From positions 1,736,001 through 1,800,000 of the forward strand of contig NZ_CP018151.1 in NCBI RefSeq assembly GCF_001889265.1: a DNA stretch of 64,000 nt, given 5' to 3'. Both the position numbers and the translations under genes were made by a program. The notes below the pieces were generated by a model. That model had not been told where the DNA came from, ran no database searches, and saw only the letters and a program-made list of their open reading frames with translations. This DNA comes from Microbacterium sp. 1.5R (GTDB lineage Bacteria; Actinomycetota; Actinomycetes; Actinomycetales; Microbacteriaceae). Positions within the stretch are counted from its first letter, which is position 1, and each line of letters begins with the position of its first letter. Of the stretch, positions 1 through 64,000 are shown in pieces.

Positions 1-743
1 GCGGCACGGACTCGCACATCCGGACTGACGAGCAGCCAATCGATGCGTCGACCGCCGACCTTCGGACGCCGATATCCGCTGAGGGTGCTCCACAGGGGCG
101 TCAGCCGATCGTCTGCCGCGTCCCAGGAGTCGCTCAGATCGGCGCGCGAGACGAGTGTGCGCAGGGCCTGGGAGCCGGGGCCCGCATTCAGGTCTCCCAT
201 CACGACCGTCGGAAGGGCGCGCGCGCGAACCAGTGCGGCGATGATTTCGGCAGAACGTCGCCGAGACCGACGCGAGAGATGATCGAGATGGGTGTTGACG
301 ACCAGGAACCCGACCCCTGTCGACCTGTCCCTGAACTCCGCGGAGACGAGGATGCGAGGAAAGAGCGCTCCCCATGACAGGCTGCCCGGCTCGTCGATCC
401 GTGTCGAGAGAGCGTGCTGGTCCCACCCGCGCAGCTCCAGCCGCGACGCGTCGTAGAGGATGGGTGTTCCCTCACCCGTGCCATCGCGGTTCCTCCCTCT
501 GCCGATGAACCGATGGTCCCGCCCGAGGGCGTCGGTGACGGCCTTCAGCGATCGGGGGAGCACTTCCTGCAGCCCGAGGACGGTCGGCCGCTCCGAGCGG
601 ATCATCTCGGCGACCGCAGGCTCGCGATGGCTCCAGCGGTCACGCTTCCGACGCAGGGCGCCTTCCATCGCGCGACGGATGTTGAACGACATCACGTGCA
701 GGTCCGGTGCAGCAACGGGACCGATCAGCGGCACGACCGTCAC
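1..743 (-). CDS. Endonuclease/exonuclease/phosphatase (EEP) family hydrolase, 3' end beyond window
   Basis: EEP-fold metal-dependent phosphodiesterase or phosphatase; the substrate cannot be told from the sequence. The reading frame shows the family landmarks in order: an MSFNIRR strand near the N-terminus, a PTVLGLQEVL segment with the metal-binding Glu, VNTHLDHLS, VVMGDLNA with the Asp-Asn pair, and RRIDWLLVS near the cut C-terminus. The GTG start at 743 is chosen because its GTGA overlaps the stop of the upstream glycosyltransferase, indicating translational coupling; an internal ATG at 692 is the alternative. About 247 residues are visible, and only the last residues should be missing. 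Family assignment is firm and the role is open. Confidence 0.85.
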   Translation of the reverse strand, partial: MTVVPLIGPVAAPDLHVMSFNIRRAMEGALRRKRDRWSHREPAVAEMIRSERPTVLGLQEVLPRSLKAVTDALGRDHRFIGRGRNRDGTGEGTPILYDASRLELRGWDQHALSTRIDEPGSLSWGALFPRILVSAEFRDRSTGVGFLVVNTHLDHLSRRSRRRSAEIIAALVRARALPTVVMGDLNAGPGSQALRTLVSRADLSDSWDAADDRLTPLWSTLSGYRRPKVGGRRIDWLLVSPDVRVRA

Positions 744-1543
744 CGGGCGCTCCGTCCCGCGGTGCTGAACAGGCGGCGGCGGACGATGAGCCGTCCCCAA
801 CGCAGGGGTGGGAAGTCGCGGGGCCAGTGCACGAGCACGCTACGGACGCCTCGGTGCACGCGTCGACCGAACTGTCCTGCGGTGAGCGGCCTCATCGACA
901 TCCCCATCGTGGTGTGCGGGAGCCGGGCGATGCGGTGGTTCTCGCCGAGGTGGAAGGCGAGGTCGAGGTCGTCGTGGATGTCGGGGTCTCCTCGGTGCAC
1001 GTCGGACCGCACGGCCTGCCAGGCCTCCCTGCGGAACGCGAGATTGGATCCGAAGAGGGGCAGATGTCCGAGAGTGACGCTCAAGAGGGTCATATAGGCG
1101 CCGAGATAGAGCCGCGAGAGTGGCGTGCGCAGGGCTGCCGGCCCGTCCGTGAAGCGCGCGGGCCCAGTGATCGCCCCGAGGTGCTCGTCGTCGTCGAAGG
1201 CCGAGACGATGGCCGTGATCCACTGAGCATCCGGTTCGCAGTCCGCGTCGAGGCGCAGGATCAGTTCGCCGAGAGCCGCGTCATACCCGGTCGACGCTGC
1301 AGCGGGAATGCCGGGATCGAGACACGTCAGCACGCGCGCACCCCAGGCGAGGGCGACGGAGGCCGACGAGTCGGATGAGCCGTTGTCGACGACGATGATC
1401 TCGTCGGCCGGCTGGTCCTGGGCGTGCAGAGCGCTCAGGCAGCGCGCCAGCAGCTCGGCATCGTCCTTCACCGGGATGACCACTGACGTGGTGAGCCGTG
1501 TGCCCTGATTCGCCGTCGACGGAATGCCATCGACCGTCTCCAT
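740..1543 (-). CDS. Family 2 glycosyltransferase
   Basis: Predicted 267-residue GT-A fold glycosyltransferase. The N-terminal TTSVVIPVKDD strand and IIVVDNGSSD begin the nucleotide-sugar site, and RLDADCE supplies the DxD-type metal motif. The middle contains a hydrophobic LYLGAYMTLLSVTLG stretch and a conserved-looking DDLDLAFHLG. The C-terminus is basic (RWGRLIVRRRLF), which could allow membrane contact. ATG at 1543 is preferred over ATG at 1570 because GAGGGG lies just upstream of it. It is coupled to the EEP gene by a 4-base overlap. A lipid or cell-wall sugar acceptor is plausible, but sugar and acceptor are unknown. Confidence 0.85.
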   Translation of the reverse strand: METVDGIPSTANQGTRLTTSVVIPVKDDAELLARCLSALHAQDQPADEIIVVDNGSSDSSASVALAWGARVLTCLDPGIPAAASTGYDAALGELILRLDADCEPDAQWITAIVSAFDDDEHLGAITGPARFTDGPAALRTPLSRLYLGAYMTLLSVTLGHLPLFGSNLAFRREAWQAVRSDVHRGDPDIHDDLDLAFHLGENHRIARLPHTTMGMSMRPLTAGQFGRRVHRGVRSVLVHWPRDFPPLRWGRLIVRRRLFSTAGRSAR

Positions 1544-3812: not shown

Positions 3813-3818
3813 TGATCC

Positions 3819-7460: not shown

Positions 7461-8821
7461 ACGCGGAGTTCAGACTGCCCGACCTCGGAGAAGGACTCAC
7501 AGAGGCGGAGGTCGTCCAGTGGCTCGTCGCTCCCGGCGATGTCGTCGCGCTCAATCAGACTCTCGCCGAGGTCGAGACCGCCAAGGCGATCGTCGAGTTG
7601 CCTTCTCCGCACGCAGGCGTCGTCACAGCCCTGCATGCTGCGGCGGGGGAGACCGTCGCAGTGGGCGCGCCGCTGATCGAGTTCGATGTCGAGGGAGCCG
7701 ACGACGCTTCGTCTGCCGCCTCGGATGGCGGCGGTGCTGAGGAGAAGGCGCAACCCAACCTCGTGGGCTACGGAGCTGCGCCATCAGCATCCGGGCGACC
7801 GGCCCGACGTGCCAGACGTGCGGTCGGCGGACGGGCGGCGACCGACACGGCCGTGCTCGAAGCGGCGCCGCACGACGCGTCGCCGACCGTGAGCGTCGAG
7901 GTCGTCGCCGAGCGGCCGCGCTCCACTCCGCCCGTGCGTGCGTATGCCAAGCGTCTCGGGATCGATCTCGTGCTGGTGGCGGCGACGGTGGGGGATCGCG
8001 TGATCACCCGCGGGGATGTCGACGACTACGCGTCTCGCACGGCGACGACCGCAGAACAGGTCGATCCCGCGCCTCCCCGACCGCGGGTTCCGGACGATGC
8101 CGCGAGCCTCCGTGATGGCTCTCGGGAGACGCGGATCCCCATCCGCGGAGTTCGCAAGCACACGGCTGCGGCGATGGTCGAGAGCGCGTTCACCGCACCG
8201 CACGTCACGGTCTTCCATACGGTGGATGTCACGGCGACGATGGACCTCATCGCCTCGCTGCGGGGCGACCGCTCACTCTCGGAGCATCGGATCGGTCCGC
8301 TTGCGGTGGTGGCGAAAGCGGCCTGTCTCGCCTTGAGTCGCACGCCCGGGCTCAATGCCCGATGGGACGAGTCCGCGGGCGAGATCGTGCAGTTCGGATA
8401 CGTGGACCTCGGGATCGCCGCAGCGACCGAGCGGGGACTCATCGTGCCTCACATCCGCGACGCCGAGTCTCTGACACTCACGGAGCTCGCCGATGCGGTG
8501 GCATCTCTCGCCGTCACCGCGCGGGAAGGACGCACATCTCCTGTCGAGCTGGCGGGCGGCACCTTCTCCATCTCGAACATCGGTGTGTTCGGCATCGACT
8601 CGGGCACCCCCATCCTGCCTCCGGGGCAGTCGGGAATCCTCGCCGTCGGCGCCGTCCGGCGCCTTCCGTGGGAGTACCGCGGTGAGATCGCCCTTCGCCA
8701 AGTGATGACTCTCAGCCTGTCGTTCGACCACCGCATCGTCGACGGGGCGGAGGGAGCGAGGTTCCTCAAGGACGTCGCGGACGTGTTGGAGGAACCGGGG
8801 AGGGCGATGCTGCTCAGGTAG
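7457..8821 (+). CDS. bkdC: Branched-chain 2-oxoacid dehydrogenase E2 (dihydrolipoyl acyltransferase)
   Basis: 454-residue E2 core. An N-terminal lipoyl domain carries the lipoylated Lys43 in VETAKAIVELP. A linker rich in Ala, Arg and Pro leads to a peripheral subunit-binding domain at about 155-195 (VRAYAKRLGIDL). The C-terminal acyltransferase domain contains SFDHRIVDGAEG with the catalytic His425 and Asp429. There is one lipoyl domain, as usual for BCKDH E2. The GTG start overlaps the bkdB stop. The last eight bases overlap the convergent tetR gene, so the operon ends here. Confidence 0.93.
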   Translation: MNAEFRLPDLGEGLTEAEVVQWLVAPGDVVALNQTLAEVETAKAIVELPSPHAGVVTALHAAAGETVAVGAPLIEFDVEGADDASSAASDGGGAEEKAQPNLVGYGAAPSASGRPARRARRAVGGRAATDTAVLEAAPHDASPTVSVEVVAERPRSTPPVRAYAKRLGIDLVLVAATVGDRVITRGDVDDYASRTATTAEQVDPAPPRPRVPDDAASLRDGSRETRIPIRGVRKHTAAAMVESAFTAPHVTVFHTVDVTATMDLIASLRGDRSLSEHRIGPLAVVAKAACLALSRTPGLNARWDESAGEIVQFGYVDLGIAAATERGLIVPHIRDAESLTLTELADAVASLAVTAREGRTSPVELAGGTFSISNIGVFGIDSGTPILPPGQSGILAVGAVRRLPWEYRGEIALRQVMTLSLSFDHRIVDGAEGARFLKDVADVLEEPGRAMLLR

Positions 8822-9519: not shown

Positions 9520-11073
9520 ATGCCCGCAACCCAGCAGTCTCTCGCTGCCGAGCTGCACGAACGACTGGCCGTCGCCGCTCAAGGGGGGCCGCAGGCATCC
9601 CGGGAACGGCACATCGCGCGCGGCAAGCTCCTCCCGCGTGATCGTGTGACCAGACTCCTCGACGAGGGCAGCCCCTTCGTCGAGATCGCCCCGTTGGCGG
9701 CCGACGGACTGTACGGGGGAGAGGCGCCAGCCGCAGGAGTCATCGCGGGGATCGGCCTCGTCCACGGCAGGCACGTGATGGTCGTGTGCAACGACGCGAC
9801 AGTCAAGGGCGGAACCTACTATCCGCTCACGGTCAAGAAGCACCTGCGCGCACAGGAGATAGCGCTCGAGAATCGACTTCCGTGTCTCTACCTCGTCGAC
9901 TCCGGCGGCGCCTTCCTCCCCAAGCAGGACGAGGTGTTCCCGGACCGCGAGCACTTCGGACGCATCTTCTTCAACCAGGCCAGGATGTCCGCGGAGGGGA
10001 TCCCGCAGCTCGCCGCCGTGCTCGGTTCGTGCACGGCGGGCGGAGCCTATGTCCCCGCGATGAGTGACGAGACCGTCATCGTGCGCGGCCAGGGGACGAT
10101 CTTCCTCGGCGGCCCTCCGCTCGTGAAAGCGGCGATCGGTGAGATCGTGTCGGCGGAGGAGCTCGGCGGCGGCGAACTGCACGCCCGGCGCAGCGGGGTG
10201 GTCGACCATCTCGCCGAGGATGACGAGCACGCACTCGAGATCCTGCGCGACATCGTCGCCACCCTGCCGTCGCCCCTCGCTCCGGTCTGGGACGTGGTCG
10301 AGTCGCGTCGGCCGTCCGAACCCGGCTCGCTCTATGACGTCGTCCCGGTCGACGTCAACACCCCGTACGACGTGCACGAGGTGATCGATCGGCTGATCGA
10401 CGGCGGCACGTTCCGCGAGTTCAAGAAGGAGTACGGCACGACTCTCGTCACCGGCTTCGGGCGCCTGCACGGGCACCCGGTCGGGATCGTCGCGAACAAC
10501 GGAGTGCTCTTCAGCGAATCCGCCCTCAAGGGCGCGCACTTCATCGAGCTCTGCGACCAACGCGGCATCCCTCTGGTGTTCCTGCAGAACATCTCCGGCT
10601 TCATGGTCGGATCGGATGCCGAGGCGGCCGGCATCGCGAAGGACGGAGCGAAGATGGTCACCGCTGTCGCCAGCACCCGCGTGCCGAAGCTCACCGTCAT
10701 CATCGGCGGATCCTTCGGGGCCGGCAACTACTCCATGTGCGGACGTGCGTACTCGCCTCGCTTCCTGTGGACGTGGCCGGCGAGCCGTATCTCGGTGATG
10801 GGCGGCGCCCAGGCGGCCTCCGTTCTCGGGACGGTGAAGGACGACCAGCTGACGGCTCGCGGACAGGCGTGGAGTACCGACGAGAGGCTCGCGTTCGAAC
10901 AGCCCATCCGGGAGCAGTACGAGACCCAGGGTGAGCCGTACTACGCCACCGCGCGCCTGTGGGACGACGGCATCATCGACCCCGCCCAGACCCGTGACCT
11001 GCTGGGGCTCGCCCTCGATGTGGTCGCGCGAAGCCCTCTGCCCGAGCCGCGTTTCGGCCTCTTCCGGATGTGA
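9520..11073 (+). CDS. accD1: Acyl-CoA carboxylase carboxyltransferase (beta) subunit, probable methylcrotonyl-CoA carboxylase
   Basis: 517-residue carboxyltransferase with both crotonase-fold halves. The N-half contains [11 protein letters not shown] and [15 protein letters not shown]; the C-half contains [13 protein letters not shown] and [18 protein letters not shown]. It transfers CO2 from carboxybiotin to an acyl-CoA. It resembles MCC beta / AccD1 rather than propionyl-CoA carboxylase, and the operon composition supports 3-methylcrotonyl-CoA as substrate. ATG at 9520 is chosen because GAGGAGGA lies eight bases upstream; an upstream GTG at 9499 has no such site. It overlaps the next gene by four bases. 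Confidence 0.9.
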
Positions 11074-15508: not shown

Positions 15509-16096
15509 TCAGACCAGGATCGCCTGGTCGATGAGACGCAGAGATCCGGGGGAGGCCTCGAAACGGTGGGCGGAACCGTTCGCGAGCACCTCGCCGACGC
15601 GCGGCAGCGTGCCGCCCGAGACGTGGTTGATCAGTGACCGGATCACGCCGCCGTGCGTCACGACGATGACGGACTCCGCCACCGGTGCGGAGCGACGGCG
15701 AGCATCGCGGGCGATCGCGTCGAGGGCGACCAGCGCCCGTTCGGCGACACCTTCCAGGGTCTCCGCGCCGGGAACCGGCGAGAGCCAATCGCCGTACTTC
15801 TCGATGTAGTCGGAGACCAGCATGCCCTCGCCCTCACCGAACTCGCGCTCGCGCATGTCCGGCACCAGCACGGGAGCCCCGAGGCCCAGGCTTTCGGAGA
15901 TGATCTCTGCCGTCTCCCGCGCCCGCTTCAGCGGGCTGGCGTAGATCGAGTGATGTGTCACGCCCTCGAGACGATCCGCGGCGGTCCGTGCGTCCGCACG
16001 GCCCTTCTCGTTCAGGGGGATGTCGGTGGAGCCCTGGATCCGTCGGGCGAGGTTCCAATCCGTCTGGCCGTGGCGGATGAGCGTGAGCAGAGTCAT
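15509..16096 (-). CDS. Histidine phosphatase (phosphoglycerate mutase-like) family protein
   Basis: 195-residue branch-2 histidine phosphatase. The catalytic RHGQTDWN is at residues 8-15, the second Arg is in YASPLKRARETA, the acid is in REFGEGEG, and VVTHGGVIR carries the second His. Such proteins are usually phosphatases of small metabolites rather than glycolytic mutases. Its ATGA start overlaps the sir2 stop, so the two are co-translated. Convergent with citE, with only 26 bases between the stops. Confidence 0.88.
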   Translation of the reverse strand: MTLLTLIRHGQTDWNLARRIQGSTDIPLNEKGRADARTAADRLEGVTHHSIYASPLKRARETAEIISESLGLGAPVLVPDMREREFGEGEGMLVSDYIEKYGDWLSPVPGAETLEGVAERALVALDAIARDARRRSAPVAESVIVVTHGGVIRSLINHVSGGTLPRVGEVLANGSAHRFEASPGSLRLIDQAILV

Positions 16097-17030: not shown

Positions 17031-17834
17031 GTGGAACTGCTGCGCGTGACGAATCCCGATGATCGACGACTCGACGACTATCGCGCACTGACCGACACCG
17101 CGCTCCGAAGTGTGAGCGACCCGGCCGGCGGGCTGTACATCGCCGAATCGACGAAAGTCATCGCGCGAGCCGTCGCTGCGGGGCATCGTCCGCGATCGGT
17201 CCTCGTTCAGGAGCGGCGGGTGGAGGACATCCGAGCGATCGTCGGCGAACTCGATGTACCTGTGTACGTCGTCCCGGACGAGGTGGCGGAGGCGCTGACC
17301 GGTTTCGCCGTGCACCGGGGCACGATCGCCTCGATGCATCGTCCTGACCTGCCGACGGTGCGTGAGGTCATCGACTCCGCCACGCTCGTGCTGATTCTCG
17401 AGAACGTCGGCGATCACACGAATGTCGGCGCCGCATTCCGTGCGGCCGCCGCGCTCGGAGCGGATGCCGTGCTGGTGTCTCCCGGGGGAGCCGACCCCCT
17501 GTACCGGCGCAGCGTGCGCGTCAGCATGGGAACGGTGTTCCAGGTGCCGTGGACCCGTATCACGGACTGGGCGTCCGCCGTCACCGACCTTCATGCCGCG
17601 GGGTTCGACGTCGCGGCCCTCGCGCTGAGCGACGACGCGGTGACTCTCGACGCCTATGTCGCGTCGCGTCCCGAGCGCGTCGCTCTCGTCATGGGATCCG
17701 AAGGCGACGGACTCTCACGCACCGCCCTCGACGAGGCAGACACCGTGGTGACGATTCCCATGTCGGGAGGCGTCGACTCGCTGAACGTGGCGTCTGCCGC
17801 GGCCGTGGCGCTGTGGGCGCTCGGACGCCGCTGA
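17031..17834 (+). CDS. TrmH/SpoU family RNA 2'-O-methyltransferase
   Basis: 267-residue SPOUT methyltransferase. The three motifs are visible: LILENVGDHTNVGAAFR (motif 1), VALVMGSEGDGLS (motif 2) and IPMSGGVDSLNVASAAA (motif 3). An N-terminal substrate-binding domain of about 90 residues resembles the TrmH/RlmB type and includes YIAESTKVI. The target nucleotide is unknown. GTG at 17031 is chosen at the start of the conserved sequence; CAGACT ends seven bases before it, compatible with a leaderless mRNA. It diverges from sir2. Confidence 0.88.
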   Translation: MELLRVTNPDDRRLDDYRALTDTALRSVSDPAGGLYIAESTKVIARAVAAGHRPRSVLVQERRVEDIRAIVGELDVPVYVVPDEVAEALTGFAVHRGTIASMHRPDLPTVREVIDSATLVLILENVGDHTNVGAAFRAAAALGADAVLVSPGGADPLYRRSVRVSMGTVFQVPWTRITDWASAVTDLHAAGFDVAALALSDDAVTLDAYVASRPERVALVMGSEGDGLSRTALDEADTVVTIPMSGGVDSLNVASAAAVALWALGRR

Positions 17835-18827: not shown

Positions 18828-20570
18828 ATGCTTTCTCCGTCCTTCCCCCAGCGCGCCCCCTGGGGTACTGCGAACAAGCTGCGCGCCTGGCAGCAGGAGG
18901 CGCTCGAACAGTACTTCCAGGCGGATCAGCGTGACTTCCTCGTCGCGGCGACACCCGGTGCAGGCAAGACGACCTTCGCGCTCACCCTCGCGGTCGAGCT
19001 CATGCGCATGGGGGAGGTCAACCGGATCATCGTGGTCGCGCCGACCGAGCATCTCAAGACGCAGTGGGCCGATGCAGCAGCGCGGGTGCACATCCGTCTG
19101 GATCCCCGGTTCCGCAACAGTCATTGGGCGCCGGCGCGGCATTACCACGGCGCCGTCGTGACCTACGCGCAGGTCGCGGCGAAGTCGTCGGTCCACCGCC
19201 ATCTGACCGAGGATGCGAAGACCCTCGTCGTCCTCGACGAGGTGCATCACGGCGGCGACGCCCTCAGCTGGGGTGATGCGATCCGAGACGCGTACGGGCC
19301 CGCGAAGCGCCGACTGCTGCTGTCCGGGACGCCCTTCCGCAGCGACACCGCACCGATCCCGTTCGTGGAGTACCACCCTGACGAGTCCGGTGCACGGATC
19401 TCCCGCACCGACTACAACTACGGCTACGGTCGCGCCCTGGCCGACGGCGTCGTCCGCCCCGTGCTGTTCCACATGTACGCCGGCAAGATGCGATGGCGCA
19501 CGAGCACCGGAGACGAACTCGAGACGCATCTCGGGCAGGACAACACCAAGGACGTGACCTCGCAGGCCTGGCGCACGGCGCTCGACCCCGAGGGCGAGTG
19601 GATGCCGGCTGTGCTGTCCGCAGCCGATCGTCGTCTGACCGAGATCAGGCATCACGTTCCGGATGCCGGCGGCCTGGTGCTCGCGACCGATCAGACCGTC
19701 GCGCGTGCCTACGCCAAGATCCTGCACAGCATCACCGGTCAGCAGCCGACGATCGTGCTGTCCGATGACGCGACGGCCTCCGAACGCATCGAGAAGTTCA
19801 GCAACAGCGAGGACCGCTGGATGGTCGCGGTGCGCATGGTGTCCGAGGGGGTGGACGTGCCGCGTCTCGCGGTCGGCGTCTACGCCACGTCGTCGTCGAC
19901 GCCGCTGTTCTTCGCTCAGGCCATCGGCCGATTCGTGCGAGCACGCCGCCGTGGCGAGGCCGCGAGCGTATTCCTCCCTCAGGTGCCGGTCCTGATGGGT
20001 CTCGCGAACGAGATGGACAAGCAGCGCGATCACGCGCTCGACCGTCAATCGAAGGACGACGACGGGCTCGAGGACTCGCTGCTCGATTCCGCGAACCGCG
20101 AGGACGACGCGTCCGACGCGCTGACCCAGGAATTCAGCTATCAGGCGCTCTCGTCGGTGGCCCACTTCGACCGGGTCGTGTTCGAGGGCCAGGAGTTCGG
20201 TCAGCTGGCCGAGCCGGGCACCCCCGAAGAAGAGGAGTTCATCGGCTTTCCCGGTCTTCTCGAGCCCGAGCACGTGCACGAGCTCCTGATGCAGCGACAG
20301 GCGCGGCAGACGCGACTGCGAGAGACGAGAGAAGCCGAGGCGGGTCCCACCGAGACGACGACGCTCCCTGCGCCCCTGCACCGCACGCTGCGCGAGCAAC
20401 GGCAGCTGCTGAACAGCCTCGTTGGGCTGTACGCCCGTCAGAAGGGCGAACCGCATGGTGCGGTCCATGCCGAGCTGCGCCGGATCTGCGGCGGACCAGC
20501 AGTCGCCCAGGCGACCGTGACGCAGCTGCAGTCCCGTATCGACGTACTCCGCAAGCGCGTCCGCTCCTGA
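18828..20570 (+). CDS. DEAD/DEAH box helicase (superfamily 2)
   Basis: 580-residue SF2 ATPase. Walker A ATPGAGKTT is at residues 41-49, the DEVH box at 137-140, SGTPFRSD is motif III-like, and the helicase C domain ends with AQAIGRFVRARRRGE (motif VI). A Glu-rich insertion follows, and the C-terminal roughly 100 residues are helical and Gln/Arg-rich. The architecture resembles actinobacterial helicases related to RadD/XPB types with no assigned substrate. ATG at 18828 is preferred over a start ten codons upstream because it fits the leaderless spacing. It stands alone between the SGNH hydrolase and the VIT1 gene. Confidence 0.88.
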   Translation: MLSPSFPQRAPWGTANKLRAWQQEALEQYFQADQRDFLVAATPGAGKTTFALTLAVELMRMGEVNRIIVVAPTEHLKTQWADAAARVHIRLDPRFRNSHWAPARHYHGAVVTYAQVAAKSSVHRHLTEDAKTLVVLDEVHHGGDALSWGDAIRDAYGPAKRRLLLSGTPFRSDTAPIPFVEYHPDESGARISRTDYNYGYGRALADGVVRPVLFHMYAGKMRWRTSTGDELETHLGQDNTKDVTSQAWRTALDPEGEWMPAVLSAADRRLTEIRHHVPDAGGLVLATDQTVARAYAKILHSITGQQPTIVLSDDATASERIEKFSNSEDRWMVAVRMVSEGVDVPRLAVGVYATSSSTPLFFAQAIGRFVRARRRGEAASVFLPQVPVLMGLANEMDKQRDHALDRQSKDDDGLEDSLLDSANREDDASDALTQEFSYQALSSVAHFDRVVFEGQEFGQLAEPGTPEEEEFIGFPGLLEPEHVHELLMQRQARQTRLRETREAEAGPTETTTLPAPLHRTLREQRQLLNSLVGLYARQKGEPHGAVHAELRRICGGPAVAQATVTQLQSRIDVLRKRVRS

Positions 20571-40204: not shown

Positions 40205-42556
<2,352 letters not shown>

Positions 42557-43981: not shown

Positions 43982-44016
43982 CGAGGAAAAAGCGCCCTCG
44001 CCCGGAGGCCTGAGCG

Positions 44017-45126
44017 TCACCAGGGCGTACCCCTCAGATCGACGTCCCCCGGCGGCCATCGCGAGTCGGATGCGTCGTAGATGAGTATGGGAGCTCCGAA
44101 GGGCTCGGTCGCGTCGGAACCGTCGGCGATCGATATGTGACGTTCTAGCGCGCGGATCCGCCTCCAGCCGGTGCTCTCATAGAAAGGCACGACCGCCTCA
44201 CGGCATCCGAGGTATCCGAAGTCGACCCGCGCGTCGTTCCGCATCGCCTGCTGGGCACGCGCCATCACCCGTCGCCCGACCCCACTGCCGCGCCAGTCGG
44301 AATGCACGAGGACTCCCCCGGTTCCGGCGACGACGATCTCGTGGCCGCCTGCACTGATCGTGCGTCGCTGAAAGCCGACATGCGCGATCACGATCCGGCC
44401 GATCGACAGCATCACATGAACATGCGCCGGCGAATACCCGTACGGGCGGTCAGGATTCCAGGCGCCGTGCGTCACGCGGTACTCGGAGTCGAAGAGTTTG
44501 CCGAGCGCTGACAACTGCGATGTGGAAAGATCCTGATGCTCGACGAGCTCGGTGCGTTCGACTGGGGTGTGCTCGGTCCCGAGGTCGCGGACCGTGATGA
44601 GGGTGCGACCGTGCTCGCTGACGCGGCCCGATCGGCCCGAATCCACGAACCCCAGCTTGTCGAGCACGCGACGCGAACTCACGTTCCACTCCCAGACTCC
44701 CGCCCACGCACGGCGATAGCCCGCTTCGGCAGCCCACCGCAGGACCGCCGTCGCGGCCTCCGTGGCATATCCGCGATTGTGCACGGCCTGGAGGAGCTCG
44801 AACGCTACCTCGGGCTCCTGATCGTTGCCGTTCGCGTCGAAGACGAGCCCGCAGTATCCGTAAACCTCCCCTGACACCGCGTCCTCCACTGTGAGCAGGC
44901 TCGATCGCTCCGAGGCCGGATCGGTGATGTGCGCGGCGATGTCGGACGCCGTCGGGTGTCCGGCTGCGTCCAGCTTCCGGTGCGCCGGCACGCGCTCATC
45001 CCGCTCGGTCCAGAGCGTGTGGAAGACGGTCGCGTCGGTGGCGGTCTGCGGCCGAAGGATCAGGCGCGCCGTCCGCAGGCGACCAGAAAGGGGTCTTGCG
45101 CCCGCTCGGCCGGATGTGTTCGTCAC
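44017..45126 (-). CDS. Tandem GNAT acetyltransferase (two fused domains)
   Basis: 369-residue protein with two GNAT domains. Domain 1 (about 15-185) is RimJ/RimL-like, with LRTARLILRP, QAVHNRGYATEAATAVL and WNVSSRRVLDKLGF. Domain 2 (about 195-345) resembles AAC(2')/NodA-type acetyltransferases, with GVLVHSDWRGSGVGRRVMARA and VPFYESTGW. GTG at 45126 is the likely start; a longer upstream frame overlaps the ArsR gene. Two complete acetyl-CoA sites suggest a broad or bifunctional acetylating enzyme, possibly antibiotic modifying. It points toward the dif-like site. Confidence 0.82.
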   Translation of the reverse strand: MTNTSGRAGARPLSGRLRTARLILRPQTATDATVFHTLWTERDERVPAHRKLDAAGHPTASDIAAHITDPASERSSLLTVEDAVSGEVYGYCGLVFDANGNDQEPEVAFELLQAVHNRGYATEAATAVLRWAAEAGYRRAWAGVWEWNVSSRRVLDKLGFVDSGRSGRVSEHGRTLITVRDLGTEHTPVERTELVEHQDLSTSQLSALGKLFDSEYRVTHGAWNPDRPYGYSPAHVHVMLSIGRIVIAHVGFQRRTISAGGHEIVVAGTGGVLVHSDWRGSGVGRRVMARAQQAMRNDARVDFGYLGCREAVVPFYESTGWRRIRALERHISIADGSDATEPFGAPILIYDASDSRWPPGDVDLRGTPW

Positions 45127-45164: not shown

Positions 45165-45493
45165 CGGGGCTCCTCCAGTCCTGCAGCGACCACTTCGAGT
45201 CGATCGGTACGGGAATCCCAGATTCGGCGCTGAGCGTCGAGCCAGTCCCCCACTGTGGCGAGTCGATCGCGGTCGAGGCTGCAGGTGCGCACGCGTCCGC
45301 GCTTGGTCGTGCGGATGAGACCATTCCCCTCCAGCGTGCGCACGTGCTTCATGAAAGAGGGCAGCGTGATCGCGAACGACTTCGCCAACTCCCCCACGCT
45401 CGCCGGACCCGATCCGAGAATCCGGATCACCTCCCGCCGCGTCGGGTCTGCGAGCGCGAGGAATACTCCGTTCACGCCGTCATGGTTAGCCAT
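45161..45493 (-). CDS. ArsR-family winged-helix regulator
   Basis: 110-residue ArsR/SmtB-type repressor. The winged HTH covers most of the chain: FLALADPTRREVIRILGSG, SVGELAKSFAITLPSFMKHVRTLEGNGLI and the wing TTKRGRVRTCSLD. The metal-binding Cys pair of ArsR/SmtB is absent, and the sequence fits the metal-independent subgroup usually found next to AHSA1/SRPBCC genes. No such partner remains; a mini-ORF and a GNAT follow instead. TACTTT ends five bases before the ATG. Confidence 0.88.
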   Translation of the reverse strand: MANHDGVNGVFLALADPTRREVIRILGSGPASVGELAKSFAITLPSFMKHVRTLEGNGLIRTTKRGRVRTCSLDRDRLATVGDWLDAQRRIWDSRTDRLEVVAAGLEEPR

Positions 45494-46546: not shown

Positions 46547-47872
46547 GTGCATCAGGTTCCCCGCTCCCCCGTGACCGCCCCGGGATGGAGAGCCTGGCTC
46601 ATCTGGGGTGTCGGCGTCGCGGCGTACGTCCTGGCGATCACGAACCGCACCTCCCTCGGCGCCGTCGGGGTGGAGGCCGCGGATCGATTCCAGGCCGACG
46701 CGTCGACCCTCGCGCTGTTCGCCGTCGTCCAACTCGCCGTCTACGGCGGGATGCAGATACCGATCGGCATCCTGCTCGACCGCTTCGGCTCGCGCCCGAT
46801 CATGACGATCGGCATGCTGCTCATGGCCGCAGGCCAGCTCACCATGGCCCTCTCCCCCGGCATCGGCATCGCGATCTTCGCGCGCATCCTGCTCGGCGCC
46901 GGTGACGCGGCGATCTTCCCGGCCGTGCTGCGGCTCGTGGCCACGTGGTTCCCTGCCCAGCGCGGGCCGATCATGGTCCAGTTCACCGGCATCATCGGGC
47001 AGGCGGGACAGTTGATCGCACTCGTGCCCCTCGCCGCCCTCCTGCACGCGACGACGTGGACGATCACCTTCGGCAGCATCGCGGGCCTCGGCGTGCTGTT
47101 CACCATTCTCGTCGCGCTCGTCATCCGCAATCACCCGGCGGAGCGTGGGGCCGACGTGACGGTCAACACCGACACGGGTGTCATCCGCGTCGTCACGTCG
47201 GCGATCGGCACCGGTGTCGGCATCCGCGCCGCATGGGCGCACCCCGGCACCCGCCTCGCGTTCTGGTCGCACTTCACGACACCTTTCGCGGGCACGGCGT
47301 TCATCCTCCTCTGGGGAATGCCCTTCCTGACCGCAGCGCAGGGGCTGGACACGGCGCATGCTGCGGGCATCATCTCGGTGTACGTGATCGCCGGAATGGC
47401 ACTGGGCCCCATCATCGGAGACCTCTCGCGTCGGCTGCCGAATCAGCGTTCGCTCGCACTCGTCCTTCCGGCCGTCGGGGTGCAGGTCGTCGCATGGGTC
47501 GCCGTCCTCGCCCTGCCCGAACCGGCTCCGCTCTGGCTGCTCTACGTCCTCGCCGTGGCGCTCGCGACGGGAGGCCCGGCGAGCATGATCGCCTTCGACC
47601 ACGCGCGCACGCACAACCCCTCGCATCGTCTCAGCACGGCCACAGGAGTGACGAATGCCGGTGGCTTCATCGCCGCTCTCATCGCGATCTTCCTCATCGG
47701 TCTCGCACTCGACCTGCAGGGCGCGGGGACGCCGGAGACCTACTCGCTGGAGGCGTTCCGAGTGGCGTTCCTCATGCCCATCCCGCTGTGGATCCTCGGT
47801 GTCACCTTCATCGTGATCGAACGCAAGCGCACCCGCATCCGGATGGGGCTGGATCCTGAGCGGCGACGCTGA
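46547..47872 (+). CDS. MFS transporter
   Basis: 441-residue major facilitator with twelve predicted helices. The loop 2-3 motif reads IGILLDRFGSRPIM (GxLaDrxGrkxxl type), and FARILLGAGDAAIFPAVLRLVATWFP fills helices 4-5. It belongs to the broad nitrate/phthalate-like or drug-type MFS; the substrate is unknown. GTG at 46547 is chosen because TACCGT ends seven bases before it. It is one of few plus-strand genes right of the dif-like site, and its two CTCCCCC sites still follow the right-arm polarity. Confidence 0.88.
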   Translation: MHQVPRSPVTAPGWRAWLIWGVGVAAYVLAITNRTSLGAVGVEAADRFQADASTLALFAVVQLAVYGGMQIPIGILLDRFGSRPIMTIGMLLMAAGQLTMALSPGIGIAIFARILLGAGDAAIFPAVLRLVATWFPAQRGPIMVQFTGIIGQAGQLIALVPLAALLHATTWTITFGSIAGLGVLFTILVALVIRNHPAERGADVTVNTDTGVIRVVTSAIGTGVGIRAAWAHPGTRLAFWSHFTTPFAGTAFILLWGMPFLTAAQGLDTAHAAGIISVYVIAGMALGPIIGDLSRRLPNQRSLALVLPAVGVQVVAWVAVLALPEPAPLWLLYVLAVALATGGPASMIAFDHARTHNPSHRLSTATGVTNAGGFIAALIAIFLIGLALDLQGAGTPETYSLEAFRVAFLMPIPLWILGVTFIVIERKRTRIRMGLDPERRR

Positions 47873-48123: not shown

Positions 48124-48879
48124 TCAGCGCCCTGGGCGCCGCAACGGCGTCCAGCCGAACGGCACCGGGCCGTCGAACGCTGCTCTCTCCTGGTCGGCGC
48201 GCGTCGACCACCCCTGAGCTTCTCCCGGAGTCTCATACGCGCCGCGCGCGACTCGAAGCCCGACGTCCTCATGGTGCATGCGGGGTCCTCCCCCGCGACG
48301 CACCGAGGCGCGGACGCTCCACGAATCGTCTGCGAAGCCGCCCCCGCGGAACACGCGATAGTCGTCGTATCGCGCGGGATCCAGCAGATCCCAGCACCAC
48401 TCCCACACGTTGCCGAGCATGTCGAACAGCCCGTTGAGGTTGGGCAGCTTGCCGCCGACCTCCTGGGGAGCCGACACACCGTCGCCACTCGTCCACGCGG
48501 CCTCGGCGAGAGGTGCATGGTGCGGCCCCGTCGACCCTGCCCGGCACGCGTACTCCCATTCGGCTTCAGTCGGGAGACGATAGCCGTCTGCGGTCACGTC
48601 CCACGTGACGCCCTCGCCGTCGAATCGGTAGACCGGGTCGAATCCCTCCCACTCCGATGCGGCGTTGCAGAAGTGGATCGCGCGCAACCAGCTCAGGTCC
48701 GCGGCCGGTCGACGGGGATGGCGTGAGGAGATCGGAAGGATCTCCGCCAGCTGCTCCTCGGTGATCGGGAAGACGCCGATCTCGAAATCCTCGAGACTGA
48801 CGGTGCGTTCCACCTTTCGGCGCGCATCATGCAGTGTGACCGACCCGCCCCGGATCGGTCGCATCTCGATATCGGTCAC
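48124..48879 (-). CDS. FGE-sulfatase (SUMF1) fold protein lacking the catalytic cysteines
   Basis: 251-residue protein of the formylglycine-generating-enzyme fold: RPIRGGSVTLHD, YRLPTEAEWEYACRAG, GLFDMLGNVWEWCWDLL, RVFRGGGF and a C-terminal VGLRVAR. In true FGE two Cys lie in the segment after RGG(S/G); here that segment reads SVRASVRRGG and has none, so sulfatase activation is unlikely. A binding or regulatory role is possible. The GTG start at 48879 overlaps the stop of the SGNH hydrolase gene by four bases, making a two-gene operon. Confidence 0.85.
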   Translation of the reverse strand: MTDIEMRPIRGGSVTLHDARRKVERTVSLEDFEIGVFPITEEQLAEILPISSRHPRRPAADLSWLRAIHFCNAASEWEGFDPVYRFDGEGVTWDVTADGYRLPTEAEWEYACRAGSTGPHHAPLAEAAWTSGDGVSAPQEVGGKLPNLNGLFDMLGNVWEWCWDLLDPARYDDYRVFRGGGFADDSWSVRASVRRGGGPRMHHEDVGLRVARGAYETPGEAQGWSTRADQERAAFDGPVPFGWTPLRRPGR

Positions 48880-51066: not shown

Positions 51067-52101
51067 TCAGTCCTGGGCGGCCAGCAGCTTGCGCACCCGA
51101 GGGATGACCTCGGACCCGTAGAGCTCGATGCTGCGCATCATCGAGTCGTGCGACAGCGTGCCGGTGGCGTACTTCATGTCGAATCGCCCGAGTCCGAGCG
51201 TCGTGACGGTGTCGGCGATCTTGGCCGCGACCCGGTCGGGAGAACCGACGTAGAGGGCACCCGCGGGACCGACGTCGTTCTGGAACCGCGCCCGGCTGTA
51301 GGGAGGCCACCCGCGCTCGCGACCGATGGTGTTGTTCATCGCCTCGAAACCGGAGTACGCGGCCTCCCACGCTTCCTCGTCGGTGTCGGCGATGTGACCA
51401 GGCGAGTGCACCGCGATCGGATGCGACGTCGTGCCGAAGGATGCGATCGAGCGGTGGTAGAGGTCGACGAACTGACGGAATCGCCCCGCAGGACCTCCGA
51501 TGATCGCGAGCATCAGGCCCAGTCCGTGGCGGGCGACCCGCACGACGGATTCGGGGCTGCCGCCGACACCCACCCAGGTGCGCAGACCGTTCTCCGTCTT
51601 CGGGAAGACATTCGCGTTCTCGAGCGATGCGCGCATCGAGCCGGACCAGGTCACCGGCTCCTCCTTGAGGAGCTCGACGAAGAGGTCGAGCTTCTGCTCG
51701 AAGAGCGCGTCGTAGTCGCGGAGGTCGTATCCGAAGAGCGGGAAGGACTCGATGAACGATCCGCGCCCGAGCACGACCTCGGCGCGTCCGTTGGAGAGCG
51801 CGTCGAGTGTCGAGAACCGTTCGAAGACGCGCACCGGGTCGTCGGAGGAGAGCACGGTGACGGCGGTGCCGAGGCGGATGTTCTCTGTGCGCCCTGCGAT
51901 GGTGGCGAGCACCATCTCCGGGGACGACACCGCGAACTCCTCGCGGTGGTGCTCCCCCACACCGAAGAAGTCGACACCGACGCTGTCGGCTCGCTCCGCC
52001 TGCTCGACGATGTTGCGGATCGTCTGCGCGCCGGTCAGGAGCTCGCCGTCGTCGCCTCTCGTGATGTCTCCGAAGGTGTCCAGTCCGAACTCGATGCTCA
52101 T
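51067..52101 (-). CDS. LLM-class flavin-dependent oxidoreductase
   Basis: 344-residue luciferase-like TIM-barrel protein. IEFGLDTFGD opens the first strand, GVDFFGVGEHHREEFAVSSP is the classic HH-containing loop, TAVTVLSSDDPVRVFERF and EVVLGRGSFIESFPLFG follow, and a late YVGSPDRVAAKI is typical of the family. It would use FMNH2 or F420H2 on an unknown substrate. ATG at 52101 is preceded by AAAGGG. A 12-bp palindrome lies 14 bases upstream. Confidence 0.9.
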   Translation of the reverse strand: MSIEFGLDTFGDITRGDDGELLTGAQTIRNIVEQAERADSVGVDFFGVGEHHREEFAVSSPEMVLATIAGRTENIRLGTAVTVLSSDDPVRVFERFSTLDALSNGRAEVVLGRGSFIESFPLFGYDLRDYDALFEQKLDLFVELLKEEPVTWSGSMRASLENANVFPKTENGLRTWVGVGGSPESVVRVARHGLGLMLAIIGGPAGRFRQFVDLYHRSIASFGTTSHPIAVHSPGHIADTDEEAWEAAYSGFEAMNNTIGRERGWPPYSRARFQNDVGPAGALYVGSPDRVAAKIADTVTTLGLGRFDMKYATGTLSHDSMMRSIELYGSEVIPRVRKLLAAQD

Positions 52102-53933: not shown

Positions 53934-56567
53934 TCAGTGCGCCGCCTCGTTCCAGTCCTGCCCGCGCCCGACCTGCACGTCGAGCGGCACGGTGAGATCC
54001 GCCGCATCGCCCATGCGAGTCCGAACGATCCGCTCGGCCGCGTCCCACTCCCCCGGTGCGACCTCGACGACGAGTTCGTCGTGGATCTGCAGCAGCGCAC
54101 GCGAGGACAGTCCCTCCGACCTGAGGTCTTCGTGGATGTGCAGCAGCGCGATCTTCATGATGTCGGCCGCGCTGCCCTGGATCGGTGCGTTGAGCGCCGC
54201 GCGCTCGGCGTTCTCGCGCAGCACGCGGTTGGGGCTCGCGAGGTCGGGGAAGGGTCGCCGCCGCCCGAAGATGGTCTCGGTGTAGCCGACCTCTTTGGCC
54301 TCCATGACGGACGCCCGGAGGTAGTCGCGTACCGCTCCGAACCGCGCGAAGTACTCGACCATCAGCTGCTTCGCCTCGGACTGCTCGATGCGGAGCTGCT
54401 TCGACAGGCCGAACGCGGAGAGACCGTAGACGAGGCCGTAGGACATCGCCTTCACCTTCGTGCGCATCGCGGACGTCACCTCGCTCGGTTCGACTCCGAA
54501 CACTCGCGCGCCGACGAAGCGGTGGAGGTCCTCACCGCTGTTGAACGCCTCGATGAGGCCTTCGTCGCCGGACAGATGGGCCATGATGCGCATCTCGATC
54601 TGCGAGTAGTCGGCGGTGAGCAGCGACTTGTACCCCTCTCCCACCTGGAACGCGCTGCGGATGCGACGCGACTCCTCGGTGCGCACCGGGATGTTCTGCA
54701 GGTTCGGGTCTGTGCTCGACAGGCGCCCGGTCTGGCTTCCGGTCTGCACATACGTCGTATGCACGCGGTGATCGGTTCCGATCGCGGTGTCGAGCGACTC
54801 GATGATCTGACGGAGCTTCGTGGCCTCACGGTGCTGCAGCAGCAGACCGAGGAACGGATGCGGATGCGACTCCTGGAGATCGGCGAGCACCGCAGCATCC
54901 GTGGAGTATCCGGTCTTCGTCTTGCGGGTCTTGGGCAGCTGCAGGTCGTCGAACAGCACCTCCTGGAGCTGCTTCGGAGATCCGAGATTGAATTCGCGAC
55001 CGACGATCCCGAATGCCTCCTGTGCGAGGCGGTCGGCGCGCGTCGCCAGCTCGCCCGAGAACGTCGAGAGGACGTCGTGCGACACCGCGACTCCCGCGAC
55101 CTCCATGTCGGCCAGGGTGAGCAGGGTCGGAAGCTCGATGTCGGTGAGCACAGCGGCGACCGACTCGGGGATGTCGTCACGCAGAGCCGTGGCGACGCGG
55201 AGCGCGAACCAGGCCTCCTGCGATGGGGTGGCGCCCTCGGTCTCCGGCACGAGCTGCGAGGGATCCGCCTCGGGGAGCTTCTCTCCGAGATAGCGTTCGA
55301 CGAGGTCGGACAGGGTCTTGTCGGGGAAGCTCGGTCGCAGCAGCCAGCCGGCGAGACTGGTGTCGTAAGCGAGTCCCTGGAGCCGGATGCCGAGGCGCAG
55401 CAGTGCCTTCACCTGGGGCTTCGCATCATGCAGCACCTTGGGGCGCGTCGACTCGAGCCACGGTCTCAGCACCTCGATGTCGTCATCGTTCCAGTCGAGT
55501 TCGCGGAGCTCGCTCGCGGTCGCGGCGCCGAGACGCGTCGGTGCCCCGCCCTGCACGACGATACGCAGTGCGATGTCGTCCGTCTGCGCGTCGGCCCAGC
55601 TGACGAACTCGGCTGCGGTGACCTGAGTCGGTTCGGGCAGCACCACCGTCGCGGCCGGATCGTCGGCGACCTCGCCGGCGCCGACTGCTTCGAAGACACG
55701 GGGCAGCAGCGTGCGGAACTCGAGGCGGGCGAAGATGTCGCGCACGGCCTGAGCGTCGATCGGGGCGACCGCGAGGTCGTCGGGAGCGACGGGAAGCTCG
55801 ACGTCGCGCAGCAGTCGGTTGAGCCGACGGTTACGGCGCACGTCCTCGATGTGATCGCGCAGGTTGCCGCCCACGACCCCCTTGATCTCATCGGCTCGCT
55901 CGAGCAGGTCGTCGAGCGAACCGAACTGCGTCAGCCACTTGACGGCGGTCTTCTCCCCCACCTTGGGCACGCCGGGGAGATTGTCGCTCGTCTCGCCCAC
56001 GAGAGCCGCGATGTCGGGATACTGCTCGGGCCGCACTCCGTAGCGTTCCTGCACGGTCACCGGGTCGTAGCGCTTGAGCTGCGAGACGCCCTGCACGGAC
56101 GGGTACAGCAGCGTGACGTCGTCGGTGACCAGCTGGATCGTGTCACGGTCTCCGGAGACCACCAGGACGTCGTATCCCTGCTCCGCGCCCTGCGTCGAGA
56201 GCGTCGCGAGGATGTCGTCGGCCTCGAAGCCCTCTTTGGTGAGCACGGGGATCGACATCGCCGCGAGGCAGTCCTGCAGCAGCGGGATCTGACCCCGGAA
56301 CTCCTGCGGGGACTCCGACCGCGTCGCCTTGTATTCGGGATACTGATCGGTGCGGAACGAATGACGGGAGGTGTCGAACGCGATCGCCATGTGCGTCGGC
56401 TGCTCGGCCTTGATGAGGTTCACCAGCATCGACAGGAAGCCGTAGATGGCGTTCGTGTGCTGATTGTCCTTCGTCGTGAAGTTCTCGACCGGGAGGGCGA
56501 AGAAGGCACGATAGGCGAGCGAATGGCCGTCGACGACCATGAGGGTAGGCTTTGCGGAGTCCGTCAC
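53934..56567 (-). CDS. polA: DNA polymerase I
   Basis: 877-residue family A polymerase. The N-terminal 5'-3' exonuclease (about 1-300) has VVDGHSLAYRAFFALP, VVSGDRDTIQLV and GVPGVGEKTA-like residues. The middle 3'-5' exonuclease fold lacks the catalytic acidic motif, so it should not proofread, as is usual in actinobacteria. The polymerase domain has motif A DYSQIEMR, the O-helix RTKVKAMSYGLVYG and motif C QIHDELVVE. It acts in gap repair and Okazaki maturation. GTG at 56567 follows TAGGCT by six bases. Confidence 0.95.
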   Translation of the reverse strand: MTDSAKPTLMVVDGHSLAYRAFFALPVENFTTKDNQHTNAIYGFLSMLVNLIKAEQPTHMAIAFDTSRHSFRTDQYPEYKATRSESPQEFRGQIPLLQDCLAAMSIPVLTKEGFEADDILATLSTQGAEQGYDVLVVSGDRDTIQLVTDDVTLLYPSVQGVSQLKRYDPVTVQERYGVRPEQYPDIAALVGETSDNLPGVPKVGEKTAVKWLTQFGSLDDLLERADEIKGVVGGNLRDHIEDVRRNRRLNRLLRDVELPVAPDDLAVAPIDAQAVRDIFARLEFRTLLPRVFEAVGAGEVADDPAATVVLPEPTQVTAAEFVSWADAQTDDIALRIVVQGGAPTRLGAATASELRELDWNDDDIEVLRPWLESTRPKVLHDAKPQVKALLRLGIRLQGLAYDTSLAGWLLRPSFPDKTLSDLVERYLGEKLPEADPSQLVPETEGATPSQEAWFALRVATALRDDIPESVAAVLTDIELPTLLTLADMEVAGVAVSHDVLSTFSGELATRADRLAQEAFGIVGREFNLGSPKQLQEVLFDDLQLPKTRKTKTGYSTDAAVLADLQESHPHPFLGLLLQHREATKLRQIIESLDTAIGTDHRVHTTYVQTGSQTGRLSSTDPNLQNIPVRTEESRRIRSAFQVGEGYKSLLTADYSQIEMRIMAHLSGDEGLIEAFNSGEDLHRFVGARVFGVEPSEVTSAMRTKVKAMSYGLVYGLSAFGLSKQLRIEQSEAKQLMVEYFARFGAVRDYLRASVMEAKEVGYTETIFGRRRPFPDLASPNRVLRENAERAALNAPIQGSAADIMKIALLHIHEDLRSEGLSSRALLQIHDELVVEVAPGEWDAAERIVRTRMGDAADLTVPLDVQVGRGQDWNEAAH

Positions 56568-57041: not shown

Positions 57042-57579
57042 GCGGCTCGACCAGCAGCAACTGGAACAGCAGGTGATCCTGCCACTCCCCCGCGATGCGC
57101 AGGTACTGCGGCGCGATGCCGATGCGCTCGAAGCCGTTGTCGGCGAGCACACGCTGTGAACCAGAGTTGTGCAGGAGGGTCGCTGCCTGCAGCCTGTGCA
57201 GCTGCACCTCGTCGCGGGCGTACTCGGCGACCCGGTGCACGCCGCGGGAAGCGAGTCCCCGCCGCAGACGCGTCCTGTCGACCCAGTAGCCCAGGTCCGC
57301 ATTCCAGAAAGCCCCGCGGACGATGTTGTTGAGGTTGATCCTTCCGCGGATCTCACCATCGGACGACTCGATCACGAACCGGATGTTGCGACCGGCCGAG
57401 GCTTCGATGACGCACTGCTCCGCATGGAACTCCTGCCACTCCGGAGTGAAGAACTCCGGAGCCCTGAGCGGTTCCCACGGCGCGAGATGGTCGCGATTCG
57501 CGGAGTACGCTCTCGCGAGGGCCGCGCCGTCGCCGATCCGGACCGGACGCAGAACATGCTCTGCGTCGAGTGGAAGCAA
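57016..57579 (-). CDS. RimJ/RimL-type GNAT N-acetyltransferase
   Basis: 187-residue GNAT of the ribosomal-protein-alanine acetyltransferase group. HVLRPVRIGDGAALARAY, FVIESSDGEIRGRINLNNI, DLGYWVDRTRLRRGLASRGV (acetyl-CoA loop) and NSGSQRVLADNGFERIG are typical. Start appears to be TTG at 57579, three bases after the pdtaR stop; no ATG or GTG in this frame fits. It is probably co-transcribed with pdtaR. Substrate may be a protein N-terminus. Confidence 0.85.
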   Translation of the reverse strand: MLPLDAEHVLRPVRIGDGAALARAYSANRDHLAPWEPLRAPEFFTPEWQEFHAEQCVIEASAGRNIRFVIESSDGEIRGRINLNNIVRGAFWNADLGYWVDRTRLRRGLASRGVHRVAEYARDEVQLHRLQAATLLHNSGSQRVLADNGFERIGIAPQYLRIAGEWQDHLLFQLLLVEPLSLPRERP

Positions 57580-62789: not shown

Positions 62790-64000
62790 CGGTCACCTCC
62801 AGGATGCGGTTCCAGACGATGTCGCCGTCGGGGTCGATGCCCTCGGCGACTGCTTCTTCGCGCATGCTGCGGACTGCCGCGTAGTCGCGAGGAAGCACCT
62901 TCGTGAACTGGCCTGCGGTCTCATCGAACCGTGCCAGGATGTCGGAGCCGAGCGGCGAGGCCGTGCGCTCCACGTGTGCCACGATCAGGCTCCGCAGCAC
63001 TTCGAGGTCGGCTCGGTCGAGCGGTTCGAGCCGGAGCTCGCCGCTGCCGAGCGACTGGGCGTTGATCTTGCCGCTGTCGAGCGAGTGGATGTAGGCCACT
63101 CCCCCGGACATGCCGGCGCCGAGGTTGCGACCCGTCGAGCCGAGGATCACCGCGACGCCGCCCGTCATGTACTCGAGCGCGTGGTCGCCCACTCCCTCGA
63201 CGACGGCTGTCGCGCCGGAGTTGCGCACGAGGAATCGCTCGCCGACCACCCCGGAGAGATACATGGTCCCGGACGTCGCGCCGTAGCCGATCACGTTGCC
63301 GGCGATCACGTTCTCGTGCGGAGCGATGGCCGCCCCGCGAGCGGGACGGATCGAGATGTCGCCGCCCGAGAGCCCCTTGCCGACGTAGTCGTTCGCGTCG
63401 CCCTCGAGTCGAAGCACGATCCCAGAAGGCAGGAAAGCGCCGAGCGACTGACCGGCGGTGCCGTGCAGCGTGACGTCGATGGTGCCGCTGGGAAGCCCCG
63501 CGGCGCCGTGTCGGGAGGTGACCTGGTGACCCAGCATCGTCCCGACGGCGCGTTCGGTGTTCGCGATCGGCAGCTCGACCACCACCGGTTCGCCGTTGAG
63601 GAGCGCCGGCTTGGCGATGTCGATGAGCTGCACGTCGAAGTGCTTCTCGAGCTCGTGATCCTGCGTGCGGCGGCTGCGACGCGGCTCGCTCGCCGGGAAT
63701 GCCGGCCCCTCGAGCACGGGGCTCAGGTCGAGGCCCTCCGCCTTCCAGTGCTGGAGTGCGGCGTTCGCCTCGATCAGCTCGGTGCGGCCGACGATCTCAT
63801 CGATCGAGCGGTAGCCGAGCTCGGCCAGGATCTCGCGCACCTCTTCGGCGATGAACTCCATGAAGTTCACGACGAACTCCGGCTTGCCGGTGAAACGCTC
63901 GCGGAGCACAGGGTTCTGCGTCGCAACGCCCACCGGGCAGGTGTCGAGGTGGCAGACGCGCATCATGATGCAGCCGCTGACGACGAGCGGAGCCGTCGCG
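62782..64000 (-). CDS. gltB: Glutamate synthase large subunit, C-terminal part (5' end beyond window)
   Basis: About 405 residues of the alpha subunit are visible; the amidotransferase and most of the FMN domain lie beyond the right edge. The visible part opens inside the FMN/3Fe-4S region: CIMMRVCHLDTCPVGVATQ gives Cys with spacings x5 and x4, the 3Fe-4S ligands. The GXGXG beta-helix domain follows, with repeated Gly motifs (GLPSGTIDVTLHG, ANDYVGKGLSGG, MSGGVAYI). Reading continues without a stop to base 64000. The stop overlaps the gltD start. Confidence 0.95.
   Translation of the reverse strand, partial: ATAPLVVSGCIMMRVCHLDTCPVGVATQNPVLRERFTGKPEFVVNFMEFIAEEVREILAELGYRSIDEIVGRTELIEANAALQHWKAEGLDLSPVLEGPAFPASEPRRSRRTQDHELEKHFDVQLIDIAKPALLNGEPVVVELPIANTERAVGTMLGHQVTSRHGAAGLPSGTIDVTLHGTAGQSLGAFLPSGIVLRLEGDANDYVGKGLSGGDISIRPARGAAIAPHENVIAGNVIGYGATSGTMYLSGVVGERFLVRNSGATAVVEGVGDHALEYMTGGVAVILGSTGRNLGAGMSGGVAYIHSLDSGKINAQSLGSGELRLEPLDRADLEVLRSLIVAHVERTASPLGSDILARFDETAGQFTKVLPRDYAAVRSMREEAVAEGIDPDGDIVWNRILEVTGG

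Follow-up and report, generated by a model that had tools for sequence, protein, structure and literature searches.

A dif-directed GGGGGAG word in Microbacterium sp. 1.5R and its spread across actinobacteria

The dif locus and its GGGGGAG copies

The window studied here is a stretch of 64,000 nucleotides of Microbacterium sp. 1.5R (contig NZ_CP018151.1, positions 1,736,001–1,800,000; the genome consists of one contig of 3,620,317 bases), and the element in question is the heptamer GGGGGAG on either side of the dif site. In the genome, dnaA starts at base 1 and the dif core lies at 1,779,957, near the antipode. The 28-bp dif site occupies 43954–43981 of the window (plus strand). Its dif-like 22-base core, 43957–43978, is identical to that of the 28-bp dif proposed in Frankia alni, according to the available text of PMC3025954. 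The heptamer changes strand at this site. On the plus strand there are 21 copies, all to the left of dif (554–560, 7645–7651, 9715–9721, 15548–15554, 17484–17490, 19010–19016, 20813–20819, 21266–21272, 22691–22697, 24381–24387, 28391–28397, 28574–28580, 28844–28850, 29584–29590, 32241–32247, 32898–32904, 33072–33078, 35680–35686, 41297–41303, 42130–42136, and 42268–42274). Ten copies are on the minus strand, all to the right (44313–44319, which is the copy closest to dif, 45389–45395, 46564–46570, 46852–46858, 48288–48294, 51952–51958, 54048–54054, 55953–55959, 57085–57091, and 63099–63105). Every copy points toward dif.

A preliminary description of this DNA had listed the copies by eye. Exact counting gave the same 21 and 10 copies and the same absence of copies in the opposite sense (0 of 31 in 64,000 bases). 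Its start coordinates were exact for 30 of the 31 sites, and the remaining one, 35690, should read 35680. The interval between the flanking copies, 42274–44313, spans dif, which places the strand switch where it had been proposed. The number of copies exceeded that in dinucleotide-preserving shuffles of the window (expectation 13.4, standard deviation 3.45, maximum 22 copies in 100 shuffles). The orientation was also independent of gene strand, as described: the plus-strand words at 15548, 24381, and 35680 lie within called minus-strand genes, the one at 554 lies in a minus frame running open to the left edge of the window, and the minus-strand words at 46564 and 46852 lie within a called plus-strand MFS gene. 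The copies at 42130 and 42268 are in the UvrA-like gene.

Adjoining dif is an open frame of 108 amino acids (43569–43895), for which no Pfam match was obtained at E 1e-5. It is neighbored by genes for a UvrA-like ABC protein, a methyltransferase, and a two-domain GNAT acetyltransferase. Among the matches listed, the named sequence that matched best near dif was a contig of Microbacterium ihumii, with 79.7% identity over 6.2 kb of pieces.

Polarity and density along the chromosome

For the chromosome-wide counts, 60 spaced 20-kb stretches were combined with the window to give an own-genome sample of 1.264 Mb (35% of the genome). Counts are given as toward:away, that is, copies pointing toward dif against copies pointing away from it. 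GGGGGAG gave 288:23 in this sample. The preliminary description had named many opposite-strand copies as the result that would overturn the polarity, and only 23 of the 311 copies pointed away, none of them in the 184 kb of the sample that lie less than 200 kb from dif. By strand bias, the word ranked first of 4,672 heptamers. Per 10 kb there were 4.84 toward copies at up to 50 kb from dif, 3.75 at 50–100 kb, and 1.31 beyond 1.6 Mb, a 3.7-fold climb in density from the origin to dif. This was the steepest rise (slope z = −6.0) among 30 strand-biased heptamers with at least 150 copies. In the bins nearest the origin, 62% (left arm) and 100% (right arm) of the copies were directed toward dif. 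The reversed word GAGGGGG gave 112:54, and GGGGG runs in general gave 1297:670, that is, 66% on the leading strand, whose GC skew was 0.012. Some CAAG-type words were weakly biased to the leading strand in the same sample and also rose toward dif (GTCAAGG 104:39, z = −2.9; CAAGGAC 135:63, z = −3.4; CAAGGCG 157:85, z = −3.6); this rise is unexplained.

The contribution of genes was assessed with calls from a codon-score script written for the analysis (1,004 genes, 84% of bases), which placed 58% of the coding bases on the leading strand. Lagging-strand genes held 107 toward copies (antisense) and 4 away copies (sense), leading-strand genes 137 and 14, and intergenic DNA 44 and 5. For codon use, synonymous codons were exchanged at random inside genes in 200 rounds. 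At distances up to 400 kb from dif, toward copies numbered 60 and 35 against 25.4 and 17.6 expected (2.4-fold and 2.0-fold), and away copies 3 and 0 against 19.0 and 7.8. Near dif, the polarity is thus avoidance of the wrong direction together with enrichment of the right one. Beyond 400 kb, away copies numbered 11 and 4, where 50.1 and 34.1 were expected. Markov models of orders 0–3 expected between 79.6:67.3 and 20.6:14.2, and 106:3 was observed. The order k−2 model reproduced the heptamer bias because it is trained on overlapping hexamers. A skew arising wholly from codon or base bias, the other refutation that had been proposed, was therefore not what the codon shuffles and the order 0–3 models yielded. 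Codon, gene-strand, and base-composition bias as the cause was rejected on these two analyses and the gene-class counts.

Site conservation, consensus, and spread among actinobacteria

Alignment in four or more of 20 congeners was possible for 20 of the 31 window sites. In 108 of 250 site comparisons (43%) the heptamer was retained, as compared with 16% for words of six G or C matched to it in codon phase, and none of 5,000 draws reached the observed mean. GGGGGAG ranked first in retention of 257 heptamers with six G or C and 50th of 806 of any composition; other GGGGG-holding words averaged 15% and CCCCC-holding words 6%. The congeners share ancestry, and the test accordingly compares words, not independent events. 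Retention was uneven, the site at 42268 being kept in nine of nine congeners. As a natural flip test, we looked for genes inverted across dif in the congeners; this yielded nothing usable, the inverted or side-changed matches amounting to just five pieces of less than 260 bp.

The dif pattern matched in 38 of 39 genomes of the genus, and from the 37 other than ours we used the 20 whose contigs offered enough room. In the family it matched in 42 of 60 genomes; 30 loci were given, and 29 were used, with our own excluded. Around dif, the word gave 380:8 in the 20 congeners and 74:0 in the 29 family members. At least 119 stretches were obtained as further loci. Eighty of these are named, among them Mycobacterium, Nocardia, Rhodococcus, Corynebacterium, Arthrobacter, Kribbella, and Amycolatopsis. 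On the dif-anchored arms of all 119, among the matches listed, GGGGGAG gave 469:4 and the reversed word 86:51. The pattern also matched 11 of 22 other genomes, of which ten were used and one with six matches (G084) was left out; for G075, G124, and G201, one of several matches was chosen before counting. The three same-class genomes fetched by their dif-like sites gave 18:0, 6:0, and 4:0. Seven genomes of other classes together gave 75:3 (14:0, 15:0, 9:0, 7:1, 10:0, 13:2, and 7:0). In all ten fetched genomes, the dif candidate lay 0.40–0.50 of the chromosome from dnaA by the shorter way (for G201, by its largest contig). The dif-like sites of G088, G157, and G075, which belong to other classes, have the form CCATAATNNNCGTTATGTNA, unlike GCCGATAAT...CATTATGTCA, and the polarity still switches there (14:0, 15:0, and 9:0). 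At the dif-like sites of G124 and G184, CGATAAG replaces CGATAAT; the word is sparser around them, with 4:0 and 6:0 in 40 kb.

Pooled over 1.87 Mb around dif within the same class, GGGGGAG gave 881:16. The consensus table used the 80 named loci. Among the single changes, more than 0.8 of the copies were still directed toward dif with A as the first base (251:18) or with C (183:28) or T (145:31) as the seventh, and only with these; the remaining changes gave 0.39–0.77. We use RGGGGAG as the working consensus. The published extended forms were polar in the own-genome sample (CGGGGGAG 192:9, TGGGGGAG 47:3, and GCGGGGGA 109:14). The E. coli FtsK-orienting polar sequence (KOPS), GGGNAGGG, gave 108:53 over its four forms in that sample, 43:12 of which belonged to the GGGGAGGG form, which contains the core of the present word. 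With that form set apart, GGGNAGGG was not polar around dif in the congeners (31:39) or in the 80 loci (39:42); the seven genomes of other classes were the sole set that leaned (19:10). The E. coli word was rejected as the signal on these counts.

The density of GGGGGAG had a further peak close to dif. Over 260 dif-anchored arms, it was 8.5 per 10 kb at 0.5–2 kb and 3.2 at 12–20 kb, in bins that differ in which genomes they contain. The peak was seen separately in the congeners, the named loci, and the seven outer genomes, and 36 of 40 congener arms were denser at 0.5–3 kb from dif than beyond 8 kb. Family loci extend only 1.5 kb from dif, and the word is dense there. Closest to dif it was sparse, with 1.7 per 10 kb within 250 bp over the 260 arms. 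The variant AGGGGAG was concentrated within about 5 kb of dif; in the congeners its density was 3.2–4.0 per 10 kb at 0.5–2 kb and 0.2–0.4 beyond 8 kb.

One of the 22 genomes, G081, was polar where no dif was found. It is a contig of 9,170,506 bases with dnaA at 4.50 Mb, and it looks like a linear Streptomyces-type chromosome. No dif-like site was found within two mismatches of the pattern, which also missed ten others of the 22 genomes and succeeded in the other three members of its class that were tried; the absence of dif from G081 is weakly indicated. XerD was not found either (best score 71.6 bits against a cut-off of 329.6). The genome keeps an FtsK gamma domain with the same helix as that described below. 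In its first 555 kb, 100 copies were directed to the near end and 20 the other way. On the left arm, three 20-kb stretches, one of them inside this region, gave 15:2, with the word pointing from the origin to the contig end, and three of the right arm, a weak sample, gave 6:4. The toward density of the terminal 555 kb, 1.8 per 10 kb, was not above the whole-arm estimate of about 2.0 obtained from totals and spacing. In this one genome, polarity was seen where no dif was found and a steep rise was not. It is possible, then, that dif itself is not required for the polarity.

The published motif, FtsK, and the choice of reader

The preliminary description had likened the word to architecture-imparting sequences (AIMS) and to KOPS. 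In the available text of PMC5993296, AIMS are defined by a strand bias and an abundance that both rise toward the terminus, and they are linked to KOPS; the accessible part of PMC4786541 characterizes KOPS by over-representation, leading-strand bias, and an especially strong bias around dif. GGGGGAG is over-represented and biased to the leading strand, its abundance and bias increase toward the terminus, its bias is highest around dif, and its orientation switches at dif. It also agrees with the actinobacterial AIMS in print, (T/C)GGGGGAG and G(A/T/C)GGGGGA, which were used in C. aurimucosum (PMC2830990) and likewise in C. ulcerans, where the motif is termed actinobacterial (PMC3164646), as far as the accessible parts of both papers go. 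GGGGGAG is the core of the published actinobacterial AIMS, a well-developed case of it and ordinary in kind, and the likeness to AIMS is supported. The likeness to KOPS stands for the sequence features. For FtsK as the reader the case is circumstantial, drawn from the presence of the FtsK gamma domain, XerD, an XerC-like recombinase, and dif.

The accessible text on C. aurimucosum gives a leading-strand bias of 856 against 61 copies and uses the switch to locate dif, and the core word is the same. The differences are the genus and, in the present data, the addition of AGGGGAG, site conservation, the density peak at dif, and genomes beyond the class. Both Corynebacterium papers presumably cite Hendrickson and Lawrence (2006), which the reference list of the C. 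aurimucosum paper names. E. coli KOPS is likewise polar, on the leading strand, enriched toward dif, and G-rich with one A, in a genome with FtsK, XerCD, and dif. It is a different word, and its reading by the FtsK gamma domain is proven in E. coli, whereas we infer it here. The SpoIIIE recognition sequences of B. subtilis and the KOPS of L. lactis are also lineage-specific polar words for an FtsK/SpoIIIE pump, different from GGGGGAG in sequence and experimentally tested. The validation in L. lactis is stated in the available portion of PMC4786541. Two recent papers, which deal with FtsK in C. glutamicum and in mycobacteria, treat KOPS in general and name no actinobacterial word in their accessible parts. 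A literature search for GGGGGAG with FtsK returned only papers unrelated by title. No report of binding of an actinobacterial FtsK to GGGGGAG was found among the titles and abstract openings searched, which left the subscription literature largely uncovered.

The Microbacterium genome encodes an FtsK with alpha, motor, and gamma domains, a XerD above its cut-off, and an XerC-like recombinase. The gamma domain aligns to that of P. aeruginosa FtsK (2j5o, 2ve8/2ve9), of which we take 2ve9 to hold KOPS DNA, and its helix reads GFAKAGRLMD, as compared with GYNRAARMIE in P. aeruginosa. Residues R1300, E1303, and E1306 of E. coli FtsK contribute to KOPS recognition, according to the available text of PMC2680272. 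The search for gamma domains succeeded in 147 of 148 genomes, and 60 domains were read, recounted with one hit per locus. The E. coli numbers were placed on this alignment by way of the E. coli helix, in a register that presumably holds. Numbered in this way, all 60 domains have Arg at R1300 and 59 have Asp at E1303, none of the 60 has the Asn of position 1296 (Ala, Ser, or Thr instead), and position 1297 is Lys in 16 of 16 Actinomycetes and in 0 of 44 others. We dropped the Actinomycetes-only Lys as the cause of the word, as GGGGGAG is also used by genomes outside the class, in which this residue is Arg. The helix changes appear to accompany a different word, and a causal role for them is unproven.

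We consider it probable that RGGGGAG is the actinobacterial AIMS acting as KOPS read by FtsK. The observations behind this are the polarity, the gradient, the switch at dif, the independence of gene strand and codon use, the conservation of sites, and the presence of the FtsK gamma domain, XerD, and dif. This septal DNA translocase would bind RGGGGAG through its winged-helix gamma domain, and the motor would load in one orientation, traveling from the origin to dif while pumping DNA. At dif, FtsK would activate XerCD; trapped chromosome arms would be cleared and dimers resolved. Selection for directed pumping would retain toward copies and purge away copies, whatever the gene strand and most strongly near dif. 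Several points weigh against this reading. The gamma helix is without the Asn of the P. aeruginosa helix, and recognition must therefore differ in detail. G081 is polar with neither dif nor XerD found, and therefore dimer resolution would not be the sole use, if this view of G081 holds. At more than 400 kb from dif, toward copies numbered 77 and 72, inside the codon-shuffle range (largest 80 and 75), and the polarity far from dif is mainly avoidance of the wrong direction. The window sites 28844 and 32898 were retained in 0 of 17 congeners. The gamma domain as the reader and the word as what sets direction are both things that we infer.

A polar signal that serves replication, repair, or segregation and is recognized by a protein other than FtsK, such as a Chi-like stop or a fork or SMC-related factor, would account for the word lying on the leading strand along the whole chromosome, even nearest the origin, and for the polarity of G081. 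G081 keeps the FtsK gamma helix, however, and reading by FtsK is possible there too. Chi is strand-biased without the terminus rise that defines AIMS, according to the accessible text of PMC5993296, whereas here the density climbs 3.7-fold and has an additional maximum less than 3 kb from dif. We regard a reader other than FtsK as unlikely. Least probable by far is that the word has no reader and arises as a side effect of base composition, codon usage, the orientation of genes, or a mutation bias tied to replication. Such an origin would agree with the leading-strand excess of GGGGG runs and of coding bases, and with the order k−2 model. The small GC skew, the shortfall of the order 0–3 models, the failure of the codon shuffles near dif, the much weaker polarity of GAGGGGG here and elsewhere, and the retention of individual sites all speak against it.

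Within the reading by FtsK, we see an even chance that the Actinomycetota gamma helix, which lacks the Asn of the KOPS-reading helix and has Asp for its Glu, reads RGGGGAG as a distinct KOPS, and that directed pumping itself, not dimer resolution alone, is what the word is kept for. The word would then be polar and flat in a linear-looking chromosome where neither dif nor XerD is found, with the steep rise and the peak only where dif exists. Beyond the published motif, our results add the polarity in the 119 loci, the 20 congeners, and the seven genomes outside the class, the RGGGGAG consensus, selection at single sites, the changed gamma helix, and the polarity of the 9.17-Mb chromosome in which neither dif nor XerD was found. 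The density peak at 0.5–3 kb from dif is also added here, no literature search having been aimed at it. RGGGGAG is a sharply defined candidate FtsK binding word for the whole phylum, ready for a simple binding test against GAGGGGG and GGGCAGGG. Comparing lineages with and without dif and XerD offers a way to ask what the polarity is for, and in practice the word marks the replichores and the terminus in actinobacterial assemblies.

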